Positions 5,277 to 24,004 of a stretch of 41,442 nt of DNA are shown one piece after another. The notes beneath the pieces were generated by a model, which worked only from the letters and a program-made list of their open reading frames with translations, searched no databases and was not told the DNA's origin. The translations under genes were made by a program, and so were the position numbers. Every line of letters starts with the position of its first letter. Position 1 is the first letter of the stretch. Where the stretch lies: positions 1 through 41,442 of the IMG/VR virus record IMGVR_UViG_3300028837_000778; one strand, written 5' to 3'. This DNA comes from a virus.

Positions 5277-5699
5277 ATGGACTCGGCTCACTTAGCCTAT
5301 GCTGCTGGTTTTGTTGATGGCGAAGGTTCTATTATGATAGTGCAGGACAAACGGTTGAGTAGGGAGAAATTTTACCGTTTACGAGTTAGTGTTTGTAATA
5401 CTGATAAAACAGTTCTTGATTGGTTTTCCGCAATCTTTGGCTTTGACGGTGTTCATACCCGTAGCGGAGGATTCCAAAGGCAGCCTCAGAATAAACCAGT
5501 ATATACCTTGCTATTAGGAGACAAGAAAGCGGCAGAGTTTGTATCTTTAATATTACCATATCTTATCATCAAACGGAGGCACGCAGAATTAGCCATAAAA
5601 TTCCAAGCATTAAAGGATTATCAACGTAACACTTTTGATAAGGAAACGAAGCTATTTTTAGAAATGAAGAAAATCAATAGGAGGGGTAACAATGTTTGA
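5277..5699 (+). CDS. Free-standing LAGLIDADG homing endonuclease
   Basis: 140 aa. The motif AYAAGFVDGEGSI near the N-terminus is the LAGLIDADG helix with its acidic residues. IIKRRHAELAIKFQALK near the C-terminus matches the usual second part of the single-motif class, which works as a homodimer. Such genes cut intronless or HEG-free alleles and spread by repair. It overlaps the next start by 8 bases and has no intron of its own visible. It could mobilise itself or act on the nearby terL or intron site. Confidence 0.85.
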   Translation: MDSAHLAYAAGFVDGEGSIMIVQDKRLSREKFYRLRVSVCNTDKTVLDWFSAIFGFDGVHTRSGGFQRQPQNKPVYTLLLGDKKAAEFVSLILPYLIIKRRHAELAIKFQALKDYQRNTFDKETKLFLEMKKINRRGNNV

Positions 5700-5922: not shown

Positions 5923-8298
5923 ATGGCAGTAATACCGAAGACTGTTGAAAAGAGAGTCAGCCATTTTCGGGCGGAAGATCTGGCGAGATTAAGCGAGGCA
6001 GAGAGGAAAGAGCTGCTTGCCGGCTTGTCCATCAAAGAAAAGGCTGCTCTTTTTTATAGCTGGGAGTTCTGGGCTAGGGAAAAACAACTACCGCCACCCG
6101 GCGATTGGTTTATCTGGTTGCTGTTATCCGGTAGAGGATTCGGGAAGGCTTTAGCCATTGACACGCCTATTATGACAATCAATGGTTTCAAGTCTATGGG
6201 AGATATTGATATAGGTGATACTGTTTATGATGCTGAGGGGCAACCAACCAATGTTATCTTTGTTACAGGTATTATGTATAACCACTCTTGCTACGAGGTG
6301 CTTTTCTCAGATGGTAGCACGATAATTGCAGATGCAGAGCACCTTTGGTTGACACATACCCATAATTCAAGAAAGGCTTTAGCGAGGGCAGAGAATCCAC
6401 GAGTGTTTGCGGTGGAGAGAACTACTGAGGATATTAAGGCTACTCTATATTGTGATGGTAGGGGTTCACTTAACCATTCTATTGAGTGTTGCAAACCGCT
6501 AAAATTTCCTCGTAGGAAGCTCATTGTTAATCCTTACACGCTTGGGGCTTGGTTAGGTGATGGCTCAAGTGCGGGGGCGGAGATTACGGGTAGAGATGAG
6601 GAAATATTAAACTGGATTCAGGCAGATGGTTATCAGGTTAAAGCATATAATATAAAGGCGGATAAAGCACCAAGATACGGGATAGGTGGTTTACATAGAG
6701 GTCTTAAAGCACTCAACCTATTAAAGAATAAACACATCCCTAAAATATACTTAACAGCCTCAGTTGAACAACGGATGGCATTACTACAGGGACTAATGGA
6801 TACTGACGGACACATAACACCAGAAGGTCACTGTGAGTTTTGTTCTATGAAATGGGATTTAGCCGAGGGCGTTTATACTCTTTGTTCTACTCTAGGGATA
6901 AAAGCAGTTCTCTCTACTGGTAGGGCTACGATAAATGGCAAGGATTGTGGGGGAAAATACAGGGTAACATTCACTCCATATATTCCAATATTCAGATTAC
7001 AGCGTAAATTGGCGAGGGTTAAGCAAAAAGGTAATCAGGCATTACGACAAAACAGACGGTATATTGTTGACATTAAGTCTATTCCCAGTTGTGCGGTTAA
7101 ATGTATAAGTGTTGATTCGCCGTCACATCTCTATCTTGCTGGAAAGTCCTTGATTCCGACACACAATACTCGCTCATTAACCGAACTGGTTAGAAAATGG
7201 GCTTATGAGAAATATAGCCCTATCGCTATTGTCGGTCAGACTAAAGGTGATGTCAGGGATACGCTGGTTGAGGTTGGGGATAGCTCAATTCTAAAGATTA
7301 GCCCACCCTGGTTTATGCCGGAGTATGAGCCGTCAAAAAGAAGATTGACCTGGCCGAATGGTGTGCAGGCGATTATCTATTCAGGGGATGAACCTGACCA
7401 GTTAAGGGGGCCTCAGCATTGTAAAGCTGCTGTAGACGAATTAGCCAAGTTCCAATACGCACAGGAGTCGTGGGACAACCTTCTGATGGGCTTGAGGATT
7501 GGCGATAAGCCACAGGTGGTAGTAGCGACTACACCACGCCCTATCCAGATTATTAAAGACCTGCTCAAGGATAAAAGAGCAGTCGTTACCAGAGGGCATA
7601 CACTTGAAAATCAGGCTAACCTCGCCCCCGAGTTTCTGTCCTATATTATGTCAAAATATCAGGGGACTAAACTGGGCAGGCAGGAGCTTGCAGGGGAAGT
7701 TCTCTCCTCTATGGAAGGGCTGGTCTATGATGCCTTTAAACCTGATATGTCTATCATACCAAGGTTTGCTATACCTGAAGACTGGCCGAGATACTTCGGG
7801 ATGGACTTCGGCAGAGTAAATACAGCAGCCGTCTGGTATGCTATGGAGCCGGAGACAGGCTTTCTGTATCTCTACAGGGCATATAAGGCAAAGGCAAGCG
7901 TGGTAGAACACGCTGCCAAGTTCAGGGAACTGAGTAGAGGTGAGAATTTCAGGCGCAAGGTTGGGGGCAATCATCAGGAGCAAGAGGCAAGGGATGGCTA
8001 TGACATCGCTGGGTGGAAACTATTAGAACCCAAAATCAGCAACGATAAGTGGGAGAGAATACGGCGGGTCAACTCTCTCCACGCCCAGAATAAGATATAT
8101 GTATTCAGCGATTTGAACGAGTATATTGACGAGAAGATGTCCTTCTCTTACGAGATTGACAAAGAGGATAACCTGATAGAAGGCAAGATTCACAATGAGT
8201 CTACATTTCACTTTATGTCTGCCGAGAGCTATATCCTCAGCGAGTTTGAGCCGGACATAGGAAAAAAGATTAAGGGGCAGGTAGTCTGGCACTACTGA
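5923..8298 (+). CDS. terL: Terminase large subunit, interrupted by an intein
   Basis: 791 codons encode N-extein (residues 1-75), intein (76-415) and C-extein (416-791). The joined terminase would be 451 aa. The intein splits Walker A, SGRGFGK / T. The C-extein has a Walker B region (AAVDELAKF), the coupling motif VVVATTPRP, and an RNase H-like nuclease with MDFGRVNTAAVWY and later acidic residues. It powers DNA packaging and cuts the concatemer. Without protein splicing the ATPase site would be destroyed, so splicing is required. It is preceded by the homing endonuclease and membrane-protein genes. Confidence 0.92.
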   Translation: MAVIPKTVEKRVSHFRAEDLARLSEAERKELLAGLSIKEKAALFYSWEFWAREKQLPPPGDWFIWLLLSGRGFGKALAIDTPIMTINGFKSMGDIDIGDTVYDAEGQPTNVIFVTGIMYNHSCYEVLFSDGSTIIADAEHLWLTHTHNSRKALARAENPRVFAVERTTEDIKATLYCDGRGSLNHSIECCKPLKFPRRKLIVNPYTLGAWLGDGSSAGAEITGRDEEILNWIQADGYQVKAYNIKADKAPRYGIGGLHRGLKALNLLKNKHIPKIYLTASVEQRMALLQGLMDTDGHITPEGHCEFCSMKWDLAEGVYTLCSTLGIKAVLSTGRATINGKDCGGKYRVTFTPYIPIFRLQRKLARVKQKGNQALRQNRRYIVDIKSIPSCAVKCISVDSPSHLYLAGKSLIPTHNTRSLTELVRKWAYEKYSPIAIVGQTKGDVRDTLVEVGDSSILKISPPWFMPEYEPSKRRLTWPNGVQAIIYSGDEPDQLRGPQHCKAAVDELAKFQYAQESWDNLLMGLRIGDKPQVVVATTPRPIQIIKDLLKDKRAVVTRGHTLENQANLAPEFLSYIMSKYQGTKLGRQELAGEVLSSMEGLVYDAFKPDMSIIPRFAIPEDWPRYFGMDFGRVNTAAVWYAMEPETGFLYLYRAYKAKASVVEHAAKFRELSRGENFRRKVGGNHQEQEARDGYDIAGWKLLEPKISNDKWERIRRVNSLHAQNKIYVFSDLNEYIDEKMSFSYEIDKEDNLIEGKIHNESTFHFMSAESYILSEFEPDIGKKIKGQVVWHY
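6148..7167 (+). mobile_element. Ala1-type intein with LAGLIDADG endonuclease in terL
   Basis: 340 residues. Block A is ALAIDTPIMTINGFKSM, starting with Ala instead of Cys or Ser. Block B carries ADAEHLWLTHT. The endonuclease motifs are YTLGAWLGDGSS and LLQGLMDTDGHI, a two-motif LAGLIDADG enzyme. Block F/G is SPSHLYLAGKSLIPTHN, followed by Thr as the +1 residue. Ala1 inteins use a variant mechanism in which the +1 residue attacks the N-terminal junction directly. The insertion lies between Lys and Thr of Walker A, a highly conserved target. Confidence 0.92.
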
Positions 8299-10013: not shown

Positions 10014-10157
10014 GTGGCTATAAAGAAATTTACTATGAAAGATGTGGACGAGGAGATAGTCCAGATTATTGAACAGGCACAGGGCGGGACATCACAACCG
10101 CCTAAACTACTTCAAACACTATTGGAAAAAGCAAAGGCAAAGAGGGCTGGCAAATAG
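10014..10157 (+). CDS. Small helical protein, 47 aa
   Basis: It reads from GTG 10014 to TAG 10157 and contains KFTMKDVDEEIVQIIEQAQ and LLQTLLEKAKAKRAGK. It starts two bases after the portal stop behind GAGGAGG, and the next gene begins two bases after its stop. The charge pattern suggests a coiled helix. Tight packing supports expression; function unknown. Confidence 0.55.
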   Translation: MAIKKFTMKDVDEEIVQIIEQAQGGTSQPPKLLQTLLEKAKAKRAGK

Positions 10158-10158
10158 A

Positions 10159-13100
10159 ATGGTAATGCCTGAAACAAAAAAACCATACTTGGGTGGCTTT
10201 GATAATATAGATGAGATAGTAAAAGCTGCCCGTAAATTCAGGGAACACGCTGAGGAAACTACTCTGCGTGGGATACTATCAAAGCACTTTGAAGCTAAGC
10301 CAGAAGAGCCTTATTTTATTTCTGGCAAGCAGGCGCAGGCTTTTGGATTTGATATACCTGAAGAATGGCAGTTGAAAGCCTTTAAGGAAACTACCGATGA
10401 GGGAGATATTATCCAATTCAGTGAGGTTACTCCTTCAGGCTGGGAAGTCGCTGGTGAAGATTTGATTATCTCCCCTCAAGGTCAGAAGATGACTATTGAG
10501 GAAACGAGAGAATTAAAAGATACTTTTCCAGAATGGAGCACTTTCTGGCAAGCCCCTGAGCAGGTTACTCCAGAAGCACCCGTAGAAGCTGTAATAGCCC
10601 CACAAGGTTTCATTTGGGACTTTGAGAGAGCACAGTATGTTCCAGCCACTTTTGACCTTGAGGTAACTAAGAAGTTTTATAAAGAGCATCCTGAACTATT
10701 GCCGGAAGGAATCTCACCAGCATTGACACCTGCTGAGGTAGAGGAACTCATAGCCGAGCAAGAGATAAAACAGGAGCAAACAACAAGAGCCTTTGTTAAT
10801 ATCTTCCCTGAATTAGAGCCAGAGGAAGGGCAGACTTATGAGCAGCTTGTTGCTGAGACCTTGACACAGGTAAGTGTGAATGAGGAAGTTCAGGACTGGT
10901 TCACATCTGGTATTCTTGAAAAAGGCAGAACCCCTGAGACGGAAGCAATACTAAGGCAATTTGGTTTTACCGATAAGGGTATAACTGATTTCTTCGGGGT
11001 ACCTTCTGAAAGAGAAAGAGCACAGGCTACTTTAGGGATTTCTTGGGAAGAGGCAACCACTGGCAAATTTGAGTGGAAAGAATTAGGCAATCTCGCTTTA
11101 GCTTCTATCGGTGTCGTTTTCGGGCCGGTAGAGAAATATGTTGTGCGTCCTTGGGAAACTGCTATCCTAGAAGCACGGAGTAGACTGGAGGTTACTAGGG
11201 GGACGGATAGAGAAATTGACAGAGTTACACTCCAGAGATTAGATGAACTTAGAGATAAATACGGATGGGCTTCCGCTTTAGTTGACGAAGATGTTAGCGA
11301 TATATGGCGAAATTATTTAGAAGAGACACAAGGCGGAACAAAAGTATTGCTCACTGTATTGGACTTTGCTAATCCAGCCTTTCTCATTCCTATAGGTGGG
11401 ACATTCGGACTGATAGCCAGATTTACCAGCAAGGTTCCTGTTATTGGTAAGAGTCTTGGCTATGTTGCCAAAGGGGTTAATGCTGTTGAAAGGGGGATGG
11501 CCAAGCCGATTTCAAAACCATTGGAGCTGGGGGTTAAGGGTTTGGAGCGGGTCGGGATGAGTCTCGGTGAAAAGGCTAGTGCACAATTACTGAAGCGTTC
11601 ACAAAAATTGGTAATGGATATTGCTGATAGCGAGGCAATTATCAATGGCGTGGTAGTAGATAATTGGTTGAGACGGTCTATTCAATTTGCTTCAAAAATA
11701 CCATTCGTAAAAGCGGGTATTCAAAGAACTCTCGGCACGCATATCTTGGTAGATAAGACTGGCAAGGTGGTGATGGATGTTGTCGGGCGAGGTGCTATCC
11801 TCAATGCTCAGATACGCAAGATGGGTGTTAATCTCGCTAATATAAAGAAGCAGGAGTTGCGGGCAGTCCTGCCTAACCCGATAGAAGGGTTTGGCTTTAA
11901 TAAACAGGCGTTCTCTTCCGTTATGGCAAAGAAATTGCTACCTGCTTACAGCGAACAAAAAGCGGTGGCAGGCACACTGGAGCATATTTTCTCTCATCCA
12001 GAAATGTATAAGTTATCCGAAAGACAACTTCAATACATCACTCGGTTCAATGAGTTGCAGGACAGCGTTCTCAATCTGCTGGTCAAAGAAGGCATACCAC
12101 CTGAACATCTGATTGAAGATTGGGTGCATCGTGTTATCGTTGACGCTTCGCCATCTCCTATAAAGGCTAAAAGACCTAGAGCGATTGGAGCTATTCCATC
12201 ATACGAAAGACCACGCAAGTTTGACACAATGGCTGAAGGTATTGAGTGGTTTATGAAGCATCCCGAATATGGTAAGGCTTATGCTAATAATCCTGAACTC
12301 TTGATAGGGCGGTATGTGGAGGAGGCTTTCAATAAGATAGCTGGAGAGAGATTTGTAAAATACACTGGCGAGTTTGGCATAACCCCTGCTGAAAGAGTAG
12401 CACAGAGATTTCCTGAGCTTGTAGAGAGAGCGCAACTAACCAAGACCGAACTGGCTGATGCTGCTAAGTTTCAATCTATTATCCTGAGAGCAAGCAGGGG
12501 GGAGAAGCTGCCTGAGCAAACCTTGAAGGCTATGGAAAGTAGATTCCCTGAGATGGGGGCGAAACTGAGGGCGTTAGTTAAAGAGCCAGCTAGAGATATT
12601 CCTCACAGCACACAAGCACAGGGTTTGCTTGAGAAATATAAGCCATTACTCAGGGAAGTGGAGTCTGTTGATTTTCTCAAGAACCCGAAGGAATATGACC
12701 TTGCCGTTAAAAAGCTAGAGGGTTTTGTTGAGACGCTATCTGGAAGTGAGCGAAGTATTTTAGACAAGGCTTTAGAAGTAGACGCTCTCCTGAAAACGGC
12801 TGGCAAAGACCTATTCGGCTACCCTGCACCACTTAATATGTCTGCGTCAATCACTACAAAGAAGGTGGCTTTTGAGGCTCTCAAAAAAGAAGCTAAGGCT
12901 CTCGTTGAAACTAGGAAAGCACCTTTTTGGCAAGCCAGAACCGCTAAAGCGGAAAAGATGGAGCAATTAAGGAGACCTGAGCTTGGCGAGGGATATATCC
13001 AGGCTCCATTTGCTAGTGGCAAGATTTATCAGCAGGACTTCATAGATAGTTTTAATAAGTTTTTCGGCTATGAACCTGGCTCAGCTATTCTGAAGCCTAT

Positions 13101-16100
13101 AGCTGATACGGCTGGTGTTCTAAGGATTACTAAGGCAGCTTTAGACTTCTCTGCGATGGCTATTCAGGGCTTGACTTCCTTCGGTTTGGCACACGCCTAT
13201 ATGCTGGTTAATCCAAAGAAAGGTGCTCAGCTTATGGGGCAGTGGTATAAGGCGACCGCATATTCTATAAGAGGCTTCTTTGACCCACAGAGCATAGCTA
13301 AATATATCGCTAAGAATACTGCCACTGCTACACAACGAGTCTCATTTGGCGGTAGCTCAAGGTCTATTGATTACTTTGCAGCATTGGAAGCCAGACATGG
13401 AATTGGCGGTCTTGGAGAAGCTGCACTACGGAAGCTACCATTGAAACCTTTCCAGAGGGCGGAGACTTCGTTCTTCGGCTTCAGCGAGATAGTAAGGGAT
13501 GAGTTCTGGAGGATATTGTCTCCAAAAGCCATCAAGCAAGGTAAGGGTTTTGAATTAGCTAGGCATCTTGACCTTTCTACTGGCATAACTGAGGCAGCAT
13601 TCCAAGGAGTGCCGTTGACCACAAGGCAATTAGAACAATCGTTCTTATGGTTTGCCCCTAACTATACCAGAGCTAGTCTTACTTTGGTGGCTGATATATT
13701 CAGGGGTGGAATGTCTGGTGAAATGGCTCGCAAGTCCCTCGGTGCTTTGCTCGGTGCTGGTGTAGGTTACTATTCTGTTACTCAATATGCCAGTGCTATT
13801 TTAGCAGGCAAAAGTGAAGATGAAGCTATGGAAGCTATTATGGAAGGATTGGGTGTAGAGACTGACCCGATAACAGGCGAGTCGGAATGGAAACCTACTG
13901 GTAGGTTTATGACACTAAAAGTAGGAAATTACAACTTCGGGATTGGTGGGTTCTGGTATGGTCTGGTAAGGTTATCTGGCAATATAATGGCTACTATCAA
14001 TGAAGTTGGTGAGAGAGAACGCATTGACCTTGTTCGTATCTTGAAGCACGGTAGCCTCAATAAGCAGGATAACCCCTTTATATCGTGGTGGTATTCTAGG
14101 TCATCTCCTTTCACCGGCACAGGGTTTGAATTAGCTACTGGACGGGATTATCTTGGTTATCCCATTGAAACTCCAGAAGAATACGCCAAGTATATTGCCA
14201 CACGTTTTGAGCCTATCTGGATGGAGCAGGGCTTGAACTGGATGATACCCGGGATGGCGAGAGACAATGAGATACCCGAAGGTGATGCCAGACTTGCCAT
14301 CGTTCCTGTTGAGGTATTTGGATTGAGAACATTTCCTGATAGTGCTTGGGTGGACTTTTACGATAAAGCGAATGAGATTATAAAACAGATACCGGAGGAT
14401 GAACTTGACGAGAAACAGATAGAGGCTTGGAAAGCTGGTAAATTGACCTGGAGTGGACTCACTGAGATACAAAAGATGGACTTACTCAATCGCTATCCTG
14501 ACCTTTTTGAGCAATATGAGGAAGCGCAGGCTGATTCAGCAATCAGGGCAACACCTCAATGGAAGTCCTACCAAAGCAGGATAGAGGAAGAACGGGATAT
14601 TTATCTTGATAGGCTCGCTCAATTAACTGAGCAACTACAAAAGGGTGAAATAGATACCAGAGAATATCGGGAGAAGGCTGGGGAAGCTGGGCAGAACTTT
14701 GGGGCAGTTATGGATGGTATGTCCAGAGACCCACACTATGCGGAAATATACGAATACTTTGAAACTAAACAATCAAAGGGAGATGAATATGGCTATCACG
14801 ACTCAGTGGCTTTAGCTGAATTCCAATCTACTATTCTTTACGCTGAGGACTTGATTGATTCCAAGGGTGATTATGACTGGGATGAAAGGGATAGACTCAT
14901 TGATGAGTTTATTGGTAAATATGGCGAGGATATTTATCAGCGAATACAAATTTATCTATCTCAAAAGAAAGAGCAAAAAGGCGTTCCGCCAATATGGATA
15001 AGAAAAGCAGAAGACACCGAGAAGCTAGGGCGTAGCTACTGGAGGTTGCCTTATAAACCAATCTACGAGATGGATACTGAAGATGAAGCAGATGGTAATA
15101 TTCCTAGCGAATATAAGGCTTTATGGCTGGGTTATCAGGGTGCTACTGATAAAGAGTCTTTTCTTGAAAAGCATCCTGAGTTAGCTAAGGATTGGCGTGC
15201 TGAATACCGGCTTGCCAATCCCGAAGATGATGCTAGATTGGCTTTATGGGGGTATGGAGGGAAACTCCAATCTATGGAGGCGTATAACCTAGTTGAGAAG
15301 TGGGGTCAAGAACTTGGCATCCCACTTGAGCAGATGGGGCTAGGCTTACCACCAAGAAGTTTGATTGGGAACTACTTTGAACTCAATGAGATAGTCAGGA
15401 ATACCAGTGGGGGAAGCAGAGAAGCTAAACTTTACAAGCTGGAAAATCCCGATTATCTTGCATTTGGGGTGGAGAACTTGGACTGGTCTGATTTAGCTGA
15501 TGAAAGCATAGATGCTCTAAGGTTGCAGGTGAAGTATAAAGACCTATATAGCCTCTATGAAGCCTACGGAGATAGAAAATCAGACCAATATATCAAGGAC
15601 AGTAAAGATAGACAGGCAACTAGGGAGAAGCTACTTGCGGATAATCCTGAGTTCAGGGATGACCGTAGGAGAGTGGATGCCTACCAGATGAATTTACCTA
15701 TGGAGCTGATAGAGAATTATGTGGAGTTTTATAGCCTTCCATCTTCTGGTTTCTGGCGGGAGCGGTATCGCTTGGAAAACTCTCGTTTCAATGAATCAAT
15801 GATAGACTTGGCTGGGCTAGTACCGTTTGACCCTGATTACAAAGTGCCTGATATAAGATACGATGAGATATATGAGAATTGGAAAGAATTGTTTGATGCC
15901 TATGATGATGTAATAGGCACGGAAACAGAAAGAAAAGTAGCAAGAGGAAAAATCCTTGCTGATAATCCTGACTTTGCGAGTGATAGGCGAAGGAGGGAGG
16001 CTTACGGGAAGTTCGTCCCAGAGAAGCATATTGAAACCTATGTATCCTACTTTGAAGTTCCTGGGAAGCCCGATGACTACCCTAAAAATGTCTCCTACTA

Positions 16101-16254
16101 TGAAGATGATTGGTTCTTAATGGAACACGAGGACTTCTATAAAATTGTCTACCTCGGCATAATGGGAAACAAAGAGAGAGATTTTTCAGAAGTACCTACT
16201 CGTAAGATACTGAATAAATACCTCACCTATCTTGATAAGAATGAGGGCCAATAG
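10159..16254 (+). CDS. Giant putative internal virion / ejection protein, 2031 aa
   Basis: One uninterrupted frame, starting at ATG 10159 just after the small 47-aa gene. The N-terminal third is acidic and helical. Hydrophobic stretches lie around residues 420-450 (VLDFANPAFLIPIGGTFGLI) and 1190-1215, after the motif FLWFAPNYTRASL. The C-terminus has two related segments near residues 1820 and 1928 (LADNPEFRDDRRR, LADNPDFASDRRR). Its position between portal and scaffold resembles MuF or large internal virion proteins. A role in DNA ejection or as a polyvalent virion protein is inferred; I recognise no enzymatic motif. Confidence 0.6.
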   Translation: MVMPETKKPYLGGFDNIDEIVKAARKFREHAEETTLRGILSKHFEAKPEEPYFISGKQAQAFGFDIPEEWQLKAFKETTDEGDIIQFSEVTPSGWEVAGEDLIISPQGQKMTIEETRELKDTFPEWSTFWQAPEQVTPEAPVEAVIAPQGFIWDFERAQYVPATFDLEVTKKFYKEHPELLPEGISPALTPAEVEELIAEQEIKQEQTTRAFVNIFPELEPEEGQTYEQLVAETLTQVSVNEEVQDWFTSGILEKGRTPETEAILRQFGFTDKGITDFFGVPSERERAQATLGISWEEATTGKFEWKELGNLALASIGVVFGPVEKYVVRPWETAILEARSRLEVTRGTDREIDRVTLQRLDELRDKYGWASALVDEDVSDIWRNYLEETQGGTKVLLTVLDFANPAFLIPIGGTFGLIARFTSKVPVIGKSLGYVAKGVNAVERGMAKPISKPLELGVKGLERVGMSLGEKASAQLLKRSQKLVMDIADSEAIINGVVVDNWLRRSIQFASKIPFVKAGIQRTLGTHILVDKTGKVVMDVVGRGAILNAQIRKMGVNLANIKKQELRAVLPNPIEGFGFNKQAFSSVMAKKLLPAYSEQKAVAGTLEHIFSHPEMYKLSERQLQYITRFNELQDSVLNLLVKEGIPPEHLIEDWVHRVIVDASPSPIKAKRPRAIGAIPSYERPRKFDTMAEGIEWFMKHPEYGKAYANNPELLIGRYVEEAFNKIAGERFVKYTGEFGITPAERVAQRFPELVERAQLTKTELADAAKFQSIILRASRGEKLPEQTLKAMESRFPEMGAKLRALVKEPARDIPHSTQAQGLLEKYKPLLREVESVDFLKNPKEYDLAVKKLEGFVETLSGSERSILDKALEVDALLKTAGKDLFGYPAPLNMSASITTKKVAFEALKKEAKALVETRKAPFWQARTAKAEKMEQLRRPELGEGYIQAPFASGKIYQQDFIDSFNKFFGYEPGSAILKPIADTAGVLRITKAALDFSAMAIQGLTSFGLAHAYMLVNPKKGAQLMGQWYKATAYSIRGFFDPQSIAKYIAKNTATATQRVSFGGSSRSIDYFAALEARHGIGGLGEAALRKLPLKPFQRAETSFFGFSEIVRDEFWRILSPKAIKQGKGFELARHLDLSTGITEAAFQGVPLTTRQLEQSFLWFAPNYTRASLTLVADIFRGGMSGEMARKSLGALLGAGVGYYSVTQYASAILAGKSEDEAMEAIMEGLGVETDPITGESEWKPTGRFMTLKVGNYNFGIGGFWYGLVRLSGNIMATINEVGERERIDLVRILKHGSLNKQDNPFISWWYSRSSPFTGTGFELATGRDYLGYPIETPEEYAKYIATRFEPIWMEQGLNWMIPGMARDNEIPEGDARLAIVPVEVFGLRTFPDSAWVDFYDKANEIIKQIPEDELDEKQIEAWKAGKLTWSGLTEIQKMDLLNRYPDLFEQYEEAQADSAIRATPQWKSYQSRIEEERDIYLDRLAQLTEQLQKGEIDTREYREKAGEAGQNFGAVMDGMSRDPHYAEIYEYFETKQSKGDEYGYHDSVALAEFQSTILYAEDLIDSKGDYDWDERDRLIDEFIGKYGEDIYQRIQIYLSQKKEQKGVPPIWIRKAEDTEKLGRSYWRLPYKPIYEMDTEDEADGNIPSEYKALWLGYQGATDKESFLEKHPELAKDWRAEYRLANPEDDARLALWGYGGKLQSMEAYNLVEKWGQELGIPLEQMGLGLPPRSLIGNYFELNEIVRNTSGGSREAKLYKLENPDYLAFGVENLDWSDLADESIDALRLQVKYKDLYSLYEAYGDRKSDQYIKDSKDRQATREKLLADNPEFRDDRRRVDAYQMNLPMELIENYVEFYSLPSSGFWRERYRLENSRFNESMIDLAGLVPFDPDYKVPDIRYDEIYENWKELFDAYDDVIGTETERKVARGKILADNPDFASDRRRREAYGKFVPEKHIETYVSYFEVPGKPDDYPKNVSYYEDDWFLMEHEDFYKIVYLGIMGNKERDFSEVPTRKILNKYLTYLDKNEGQ

Positions 16255-17073: not shown

Positions 17074-18054
17074 ATGGCACTTACTTTGGCAGAATACGCC
17101 AAACAAGCATATGATGACGGCAATTTGCTACTGGGCAATATAGCCGATTGGTTTCTTATGGAATCCAATGTAGCCCAACTCTTACCCTGGCAAACTTCCC
17201 CGCAACTCGCCGTCAAGATAATCGCCTGGAATACCCTGCCCACCGTTGGCTGGAGGAAAATAAACGCTTCGTACAGCGAATCAACCGGCACCTACGAACA
17301 CAAGATTGAGAGCAAATACATCTTCGGGCATGATATTGACGTAGATGTTGTGCTGGCAAAAGCCGGGAACACAATCGGGGACGTAAGACAGAACCAGCGT
17401 AAGATGAGCGCAAAGGCGATGGCGTTTGAGTTCAACGACCAGTTCATAAACGGAGACCCCGCCAACGATGAGTTCAAGGGTATCTCAAGCCGTGTTGATG
17501 ATGCCAATGATGCTGGTTTTACCGACCAGTATATTGACGCCGGCAGTGCAACTAATAACAGGGGGATACTCTACGACACAACTGAACGCCACCGCTTCAT
17601 GGACAATGTGGCAAAACTTATCCATGTCATCTCAGAGCATAAACCGGATGCTCTTTACATGAACGCTAAGATGTATCTGGCTTTTGAAGCTGCGTTGAGG
17701 CGAGAGAATGTGCTGAGACAGACTGAGGATATGTTCGGCAGGGTAATAAACGCCTATGGTGGAGTTCCTCTAATTGACATTGGCATCAAGGCTGACCAGT
17801 CCACTCAGATTATTCCAAACAATGAAACTCTGAGTGAAGGCACGGAAGAAACCTCTATCTATGCGGTAAAGTATGGTGAGGAGGAGTATATGTGGGGTGT
17901 CCAGCAAGCAGCTATGGAAGCTAGAGACCTCGGTGAACTGCAAACCAAGCCGTGTTACCGTGATAGGGTAGAGTGGGTTGTAGGTCTTGCCGTCAGTAAC
18001 CCCAGGTCAATAGCCAGAGGCTATGGCTTTGTTCCCGATGCCGATGCGAGTTAA
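17074..18054 (+). CDS. Major capsid protein
   Basis: 326 aa, directly after the scaffold. The N-terminal sequence MALTLAEYAKQAYDDG and the segments TPQ-like LPWQTSPQL, INGDPANDEFKGI and YGGVPLIDIG are typical of HK97-fold coat proteins of phages with separate scaffolds. The tail AVSNPRSIARGYGF also fits. It forms the icosahedral head. GTGAGGTG precedes the start. Confidence 0.85.
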   Translation: MALTLAEYAKQAYDDGNLLLGNIADWFLMESNVAQLLPWQTSPQLAVKIIAWNTLPTVGWRKINASYSESTGTYEHKIESKYIFGHDIDVDVVLAKAGNTIGDVRQNQRKMSAKAMAFEFNDQFINGDPANDEFKGISSRVDDANDAGFTDQYIDAGSATNNRGILYDTTERHRFMDNVAKLIHVISEHKPDALYMNAKMYLAFEAALRRENVLRQTEDMFGRVINAYGGVPLIDIGIKADQSTQIIPNNETLSEGTEETSIYAVKYGEEEYMWGVQQAAMEARDLGELQTKPCYRDRVEWVVGLAVSNPRSIARGYGFVPDADAS

Positions 18055-23117: not shown

Positions 23118-24004
23118 ATGGGACTGTTAGTACCGAGATTTCTAGTACCAAGGAGGGAGCAAGTGGGGGATGGCATAACCAAGCTGAGAACCAGAACACA
23201 GGCACAGAAATTCACTACCGACTTCCGAAGTATTGAGAGTGCCTTTCCACAATGCCTCAACCTGCCTGACTGCAATCAGAGATGGCAGTATCTCGTTAGT
23301 GTAATGGGAGCGCAGGGGACACTAGACCCTGAGATGTGGGACTACATCGGGCGATTCAGGTCAGCAATCGGACAGCCGAGGCGGGAAGTCAGGGACAAGG
23401 TGGTAACTACCGCCTTTGTGGACTTCATAGTTGACCAGCTACAGACCGAGACATCCGTATTCGGTGACTTCAAATACCACGATTCAGGGATTGGCACTGG
23501 TGCAGAAGCAGCAGGAGATACTGCTCTTGGCACTCCTTGGGGTGGTTCAAGGGACACTGGCACGCAGACTGAGACAGACCACGATACCTACAAGTCTGTG
23601 GCTACTACTACCTACAACGCCACAAAAGCTATCACCGAACACGGGCTGTTCAACACCTCTGATACTGTAACCCTGATGGACAGAACCAAGTTTGACGCTA
23701 CCAATGTGGTGGATACCAATCAGATTGGAAATGGTCTGCCGTTAGCGCAAGTTAACGGGCAATACGGGGTGAATTGCGGGAACTCTAAGGGCAAAGCCTA
23801 TGACAATCCGCAGCCAAGCCCAGTGAATGACATTAAAGTAACTGGGAAGGTTCAGAGACTAGAGGTTGAGGAGTCTACCAATAAGACCTCAAATAGCGCC
23901 CCGCATCCAGCAACGATGGATGAAGAGATAGTCCAAGCCGAGAGGAAACTCTCGGAGAGCCTTGCGAGTTCACCTTTGAGATAAGTTTTACTGCTGGCGG
24001 GTAG
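23118..24004 (+). CDS. Split virion structural gene, exons 23118-23726 and 23960-24004
   Basis: Exon 1 gives 203 codons ending DATNVVDTNQI, exon 2 gives PCEFTFEISFTAGG and TAG; the spliced protein is 217 aa. A C-terminal beta strand ending in TAGG is familiar from phage tail-associated proteins, while the unspliced frame ends in an unrelated tail at 23984. The intron between the exons carries all group I core elements. The middle region (YKSVATTTYNATKAITEHG) is beta-rich. Start ATG 23118 is preceded by GAAGGAGGCAAAG. Likely a tail or neck protein. Confidence 0.8.
23727..23959 (+). ncRNA. Group I self-splicing intron, probably subgroup IA, 233 nt, no ORF
   Basis: P1 pairs exon 23721-23726 with the guide 23733-23738, with a U-G pair at the splice site. 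P2 is 23739-23744/23753-23758. P3 is 23765-23769/23899-23903. P4 is 23775-23779/23808-23812. P6 is 23819-23824/23841-23846. P7 is 23857-23861/23929-23933. P8 is 23904-23909/23917-23922. P9 is 23938-23955 with a GAAA loop. Consensus boxes P (AATTGCGGGAA), Q (AATCCGCAGC), R (GTTCAGAGACTA) and S (GATAGTCC) all occur in order. A hairpin between P7 and P3 (23862-23866/23886-23890) fits the P7.1 of subgroup IA. The terminal G is 23959. Confidence 0.95.

Follow-up and report, generated by a model that had tools for sequence, protein, structure and literature searches.

A group I intron without an ORF in a structural-module gene of an uncultivated tailed phage, and its relatives at a homologous and a non-homologous site

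The window analysed here, a virus record of 41,442 bases from an uncultivated tailed phage (IMG/VR IMGVR_UViG_3300028837_000778), contains, judged from its sequence, a group I intron whose removal in silico restores a conserved protein product. The intron comprises 239 nt and very probably both splices and belongs to a lineage that has been mobile, including into a non-homologous gene. A scan of viral contigs with the translated intron retrieved two further contigs with related introns, L030 and L031 (the latter on the L038 contig). Within the mRNA, the intron would fold into a group I ribozyme whose guide would pair with the four or five bases at the end of exon 1 (cAGAU); the predicted reaction is a cut after U23725 with a guanosine cofactor, followed by joining of exon 1 to C23965. 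On an evolutionary scale, the lineage would have moved horizontally between phages.

Host gene, intron boundaries and predicted spliced product

The host gene starts with the ATG at 23118 and is interrupted within codon 203 (I203), where the isoleucine codon reads ATT in the DNA and, after splicing, ATC in the mRNA. In silico splicing gave a protein of 215 aa with the C-terminus NQI-EFTFEISFTAGG. Scanning of viral contigs with the exon 1 protein yielded 28 relatives, all uninterrupted to the stop; the 12 residues past the position of window I203 form a tail of the EFTFEISFTAGG type in 27 of them, and the remaining one (L027) has a shorter alignment, yet is uninterrupted as well. A profile scan gave 52 contigs with the host gene, 51 of which run uninterrupted across the insertion point, while one (L169) is ended by the contig edge at the site. 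Homologues read NQI and then directly EFTF, with nothing between. Because they run uninterrupted through the site with that tail, NQI-EFTFEISFTAGG was taken as the correct product. The earlier note had proposed that splicing leads to a natural C-terminus and that intronless homologues continue from NQI straight into exon 2, and both proposals held. Its junction had to be moved: joining 23726 to 23960 would give NQI-PC-EFTF, with Pro-Cys as two extra residues, and the true 3' site is placed at 23964/23965.

Several junctions one base apart would result in an identical spliced protein, and 23725/23965 alone fits the homologues, the U.G pair, omega-G and P9.0 together (a slash marks the junction here and below). 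U23725 is in the U.G pair with G23734, G23964 is the last intron base, P9.0 (AAG/CUU pairing) lies immediately before it, and C23965 faces G23733 in a short P10; both P9.0 and P10 were assigned by eye from the letters and stand outside the pair count given below. The introns of L030 and L031 have the same boundaries as that of the window, AGAT/T...CTTG/C. On these sequence grounds, splicing of the intron in the phage mRNA is well supported.

Without splicing, the frame continues across the entire intron to a stop at 23982-23984, corresponding to 288 aa. Use of this frame, by which read-through would lengthen the protein through a tail of some 85 intron-encoded residues, is very improbable. The frame is open in the window and in L030, and in the window such openness is expected in 0.8% of mononucleotide shuffles; L031, on the other side, has one stop in that frame, the tail has no Pfam match, and codon differences over the first 165 nt are mostly non-synonymous (synonymous:non-synonymous 1:9, 3:9 and 3:6 for the three pairs, the first ratio being that of window versus L030). 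The read-through isoform was set aside as unlikely on account of these codon differences and the L031 stop. What had earlier been called an odd tail is thus uncommon as an open frame reaching 23984, without a sign of selection as protein. The warning that annotation goes astray here was justified, since an annotation made without an intron model carries a false 85-residue tail and loses the conserved C-terminus.

Upstream of the host gene there is a GP7-type major capsid gene (17074-18054). Exon 1 of the host gene gave no Pfam match. Of 19 family members, 12 matched PHROG 5417 (unknown function) and two matched PHROG 240 ('head protein'), and a weak relative, annotated 'tail collar fiber protein', is located shortly after the capsid gene of MW202796. 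Position and weak matches make the host protein a likely part of the virion, so that the virion gene of the earlier note stands as an indirect assignment. The predicted structure of the host protein is of low confidence (mean pLDDT 66, pTM 0.42), with weak matches to the PDB (best E 0.024) and two uncharacterised viral matches (E <= 0.001); a profile search of solved structures gave no meaningful match. The low-confidence model and its weak matches may hint at a tail-type protein. Elsewhere in the window, the terminase gene (5923-8298) has a 340-aa insert at 6148-7167, positioned at the Walker A motif (GRGFGK/T), which begins with Ala, ends with HN and contains a LAGLIDADG_3 match; from its motifs we take it to be a likely intein. 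A 2061-aa ORF at window positions 10069-16254 had no Pfam or PHROG match; in its C-terminal part it shares 38% identity with a stretch of L038.

Ribozyme fold and covariation

The Rfam model RF00028 matched positions 23717-23955 on the + strand with 106.5 bits (E 7.9e-27, gathering score 50) over 253/253 model positions, and was the sole Rfam match above threshold in the window. This agrees with the earlier reading of the stretch as a group I intron without an ORF. Helices P1 to P9 and the P, Q, R and S elements, all of which had been read from the letters before, were located as listed in Table 1, together with the P3/P7 pseudoknot. The lowest-energy fold had -83.3 kcal/mol (z -3.95; 0/200 shuffles as low) and holds P2, P3, P4, P6, P7.1, P8 and P9; the P7 pairing, being a pseudoknot, was taken from the Rfam alignment and counted apart from this fold.

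Table 1 Coordinates of the host gene, the intron and its structural elements in the window
Feature	Position	Strand	Basis
Exon 1, structural-module host gene	23118..23725	+	ATG start; homologues in 52 contigs; spliced translation
Group I intron, 239 nt, ORF-less	23726..23964	+	Rfam RF00028, 106.5 bits; ends set by homologues and two related introns
Exon 2, 13 codons' worth, TAG stop, gives (I)EFTFEISFTAGG	23965..24004	+	uninterrupted homologues; spliced translation
P1: exon CAGAU 23721-23725 with guide GUCUG 23734-23738	23721..23738	+	pair count
P2, GCAA loop (CCGUUAGC / GUUAACGG)	23739..23758	+	one compensatory change, C-G to U-A
P3: 23765-23771 with 23897-23903, encloses P4-P7.1	23765..23903	+	Rfam match, fold, pair count
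P4 (23775-23780 with 23807-23812) and P5; P and Q elements	23775..23812	+	Rfam match, fold, pair count
P6 and P6a (CCCAGU 23819-23824 with ACUGGG 23841-23846)	23813..23851	+	three compensatory pairs
P7: GACUA 23857-23861 with UAGUC 23929-23933; R and S elements	23857..23933	+	invariant in three introns
P7.1 hairpin (GAGGU / ACCUC)	23862..23890	+	fold, pair count; identical in three introns
P8 hairpin (CAUCCA / UGGAUG)	23904..23922	+	one compensatory pair; loop length variable
P9 hairpin, GAAA loop	23938..23955	+	three compensatory pairs
P9.0: AAG 23935-23937 with CUU 23961-23963; G23964 intron end; C23965 exon 2 start	23935..23965	+	read from letters

Across the three introns, standard pairs occupy 187 of 191 pair cells (97.9%), and in 8 of 64 pairs both partners have changed; this is a small set (n = 3), in which the invariant helices P3, P4, P7 and P7.1 carry no information. 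Sliding of the structures by 1-3 columns left 0 or 1 two-sided changes versus 8, and 2/500 shuffles reached 8. The four broken pair cells comprise two in the outermost P1 pair, which is missing in L030 and L031, one in P5 and one in P9 (L031, shifted by a gap). The U.G at the 5' splice site, the terminal intron G and the ending YTTG/C are common to the window, L030 and L031. Compensatory changes in P2, P6, P8 and P9 support what would be a working ribozyme. The P7.1-like hairpin pointed out before is present between P7 and P3; no P7.2 was identified, and membership in subgroup IA is suggested by P7.1.

Related introns and GATC at the insertion site

Rfam identified both relatives as group I introns (103.1 and 102.5 bits). 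The L031 intron occupies the same site of a homologous gene, with the spliced end NGEKI-EFTYQLTVTAGG. The L030 intron, on a 5.4-kb metagenome contig, lies in a different, non-homologous gene with the spliced end GYEI-YSDATQPTS; the 79 other members of this gene family (among the best 80 of 94 relatives, L030 itself being one of the 80) are all uninterrupted and have a comparable end. This gene is probably the major capsid gene, with a Phage_capsid_4 match below threshold (E 0.0021, 18.8 bits versus a cut-off of 27) and no match to PHROG. A chimeric assembly of L030 is unlikely, because both exons rejoin to the C-terminus of the family.

Intron identities are 91.1% (window-L030), 86.4% (window-L031) and 89.7% (L030-L031). 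Between window and L031, the identity is 58% over the final 330 nt of exon 1, 56% over its final 45 nt and 60% over exon 2; for the capsid proteins it is 27% across 242 aa. Outside the intron, no similarity could be detected between L030 and either the window or L031/L038, and none of the 79 contigs of the L030 gene family yielded a member of the host-gene family. Past AGAT/C, 10/36 upstream and 6/39 downstream flanking positions match between L030 and the window, which is about chance.

Three pattern scans of viral contigs gave no further close copy of the intron beyond L030 and the L031/L038 contig; six other loci from one of these scans have only short core stretches in common, and so do, among the matches listed (20 of 42 records), those from the phages collection. 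Rfam detected no intron in the 28 loci of the exon 1 scan, nor in 20 of the 52 profile-scan loci, and on 29 whole records it gave these three introns as the only matches above threshold, along with one sub-threshold match in the L138 record. For host assignment, genome contigs were scanned by pattern (0 stretches) and by protein (37 pattern matches, no relative).

Other group I introns were noted in passing. The sub-threshold match (28.6 bits; L172 1442-2280) in the L138 record, which holds a host-gene relative, adjoins a frame that appears intron-borne by eye, within what is probably a capsid gene of the opposite strand; this frame is presumably LAGLIDADG-like. Further group I intron cores were seen in L032-L037 from IMG/VR contigs, where they lie early in what by eye resemble capsid genes; L033 has two introns, only L033, L034 and L037 are above the Rfam threshold, and the matches of L034 and L037 span about 1 kb, so that they probably carry an ORF. 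Downstream (3') of exon 2 in L031 (about 5300-5420), a 38-residue frame rich in KG repeats looks NUMOD3-like by eye; it had no Pfam match, and the idea of an endonuclease remnant was discarded.

All three introns sit between AGAT and C, so that GATC occurs there only in the spliced mRNA. GATC was observed 1 time in the window against 152 expected from trinucleotide and dinucleotide counts, 0/16 in L030 and 3/45 in L038, and AGAT is followed by C in 1/229 cases in the window (given strand), 0/38 in L030 and 1/57 in L038. Avoidance of GATC (observed/expected <0.15) was found in 8/28 host-gene relatives and 38/79 L030-gene relatives (39/79 with the ratio left unrounded) and is therefore so common that three avoiders among three carriers are unremarkable by themselves. 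Among avoiders with AGAT at the site, C comes next in 0/3 members of the host-gene family and 0/12 of the L030-gene family, the next base being T, A or G in 15/15; among non-avoiders of the L030 gene family, C comes next in 7/15. Carriers (3/3 with C) and avoiders (0/15) differ with Fisher p 0.0012, or 0.007 with window and L031 counted once, in a test that ignores relatedness among the 15 avoiders. The assumption that the empty site read AGATC was dropped as uncertain in view of these 15 avoiders.

On a modest reading, the C is required for P10 or arrived with the intron, and it is tolerated because the intron splits GATC in the DNA. That the intron position is tied to restriction, the DNA at GAT/C being hidden from a GATC-cutting host enzyme, is distinctly unlikely; either insertion would have been selected for removing a rare leftover GATC, or GATC cleavage would start insertion. 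If true, an RNA intron would spread as a silent restriction-site eraser for which an endonuclease of its own is unnecessary. Further 4-mer palindromes are avoided in the window (observed/expected: TCGA 1/75, CGCG 0/40, GGCC 18/159, CATG 25/118, GTAC 30/125), which suggests that several restriction systems have acted in the host over time.

Probable movement of the intron and comparison with known systems

We infer that the intron spread horizontally and into non-homologous genes, and that movement gave rise to the L030 copy, because the introns are 86-91% identical versus 58% for the exons, L030 is otherwise dissimilar and its flanks match at about chance level. As only three introns are known, their tree is unrootable and gives no direction of movement. 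An old intron, inherited vertically at the host-gene site and conserved as a compact ribozyme, with L030 as a rare recombination accident, would explain why window and L031 share the intron position in homologous genes, and the structural genes of the two are indeed related, though distantly. We nevertheless consider it unlikely, given that adjacent exons (56-60%) and capsids (27%) fall far behind the intron (86%), that 51 of the 52 other homologues are intronless and the remaining one is cut, and that the L030 copy (91%) is as close to the window intron as the same-site copy, or closer.

Horizontal movement could have proceeded by reverse splicing into mRNA with subsequent cDNA recombination, or at the DNA level, by repair with an endonuclease in trans or by illegitimate recombination. 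Around the intron, the targets in window and L030 share no more than the preceding AGAT and the following C. According to a review (PMC3984707), reverse splicing requires about four to six bases of pairing, which the length of the AGAU target fits; reverse transcription would also be required, and no reverse transcriptase (RVT_1) was found in the three records, that of L030 covering only 5.4 kb. Direct reverse splicing at AGAU/C sits uneasily with AGATC being nearly absent from these phages. Spread at the DNA level by an endonuclease encoded elsewhere, through collaborative homing or relaxed cleavage, rather than insertion at the RNA level, is a real possibility that stops short of being probable. 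Such spread is known for ORF-less phage introns (PMC3984707), and since T, A or G follows AGAT in all 15 avoiders, an empty AGATC site for reverse splicing would have been rare. The translated intron had no Pfam match and is thus devoid of its own endonuclease ORF. Speaking against an endonuclease encoded elsewhere, HNH, HNH_3, GIY-YIG and NUMOD3 gave no match in the three records (again with 5.4 kb for L030), the sole LAGLIDADG_3 match lies inside the window terminase, the flanks of the two non-homologous sites are similar over five bases at most, and window and L031 are without a sign of exon co-conversion. An IStron-like element that is non-autonomous and mobilised in trans by a Y1 transposase is no better than a bare outside chance: IStrons insert at a short conserved 5' target sequence without target duplication, and the insertions described here likewise have a short conserved sequence on the 5' side and no duplication; a transposase-recognised end would be expected to keep its sequence, unlike P9, the 3' hairpin, which keeps structure and not sequence, and no Y1 transposase (Y1_Tnp) was found in the three records. 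IStrons are included in the reference list of the review cited above (PMC3984707).

Group I introns in capsid and tail genes of phages are already known, and the mycobacteriophages LittleE (capsid gene) and BAKA/Optimus (tail gene), which carry related introns, are a close precedent. As reported for these phages (PMC3706429), the BAKA intron has 265 bp and no endonuclease gene, its splicing was demonstrated by RT-PCR, the LittleE copy in the capsid gene bears a LAGLIDADG-like frame, and the similarity between LittleE and BAKA, both Cluster J phages, is a 5' segment of 156 bp (98%). Judged by that description, the introns studied here resemble them in occurring as related copies in a probable capsid gene and in structural-module genes, with exon 1 ending in U and the intron in G. 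They differ in that all copies are ORF-less, the similarity extends over the whole intron and L030 is otherwise dissimilar to the window. In collaborative homing, as described in PMC3984707, ORF-less phage introns spread to homologous sites via free-standing endonucleases, and intron and endonuclease share one conserved target; here, by contrast, none of the searched endonuclease families was found in the three records and one copy is at a non-homologous site. Small group I introns are frequent in phages and some are nuclease-free, as in the Bastillevirinae (PMC11878797) and Jug phages (PMC12363816); the excerpts of these accounts contain no intron common to non-homologous genes of unrelated phages and no restriction-site masking. 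Among the literature titles and abstract beginnings listed, no ORF-less intron in non-homologous genes of unrelated phages was found besides LittleE/BAKA, and no report of GATC masked by an intron. The present analysis adds whole-length ORF-less copies in otherwise dissimilar phages.

For ORF-less group I introns, direct evidence for the reverse-splicing route is lacking according to the review PMC3984707, and movement to new genes has so far been argued mostly from rDNA. With a 91% identical intron in two non-homologous genes, intronless relatives of both and about five target bases in common, the window/L030 pair represents a compact natural case for comparing RNA-guided with DNA-guided insertion.
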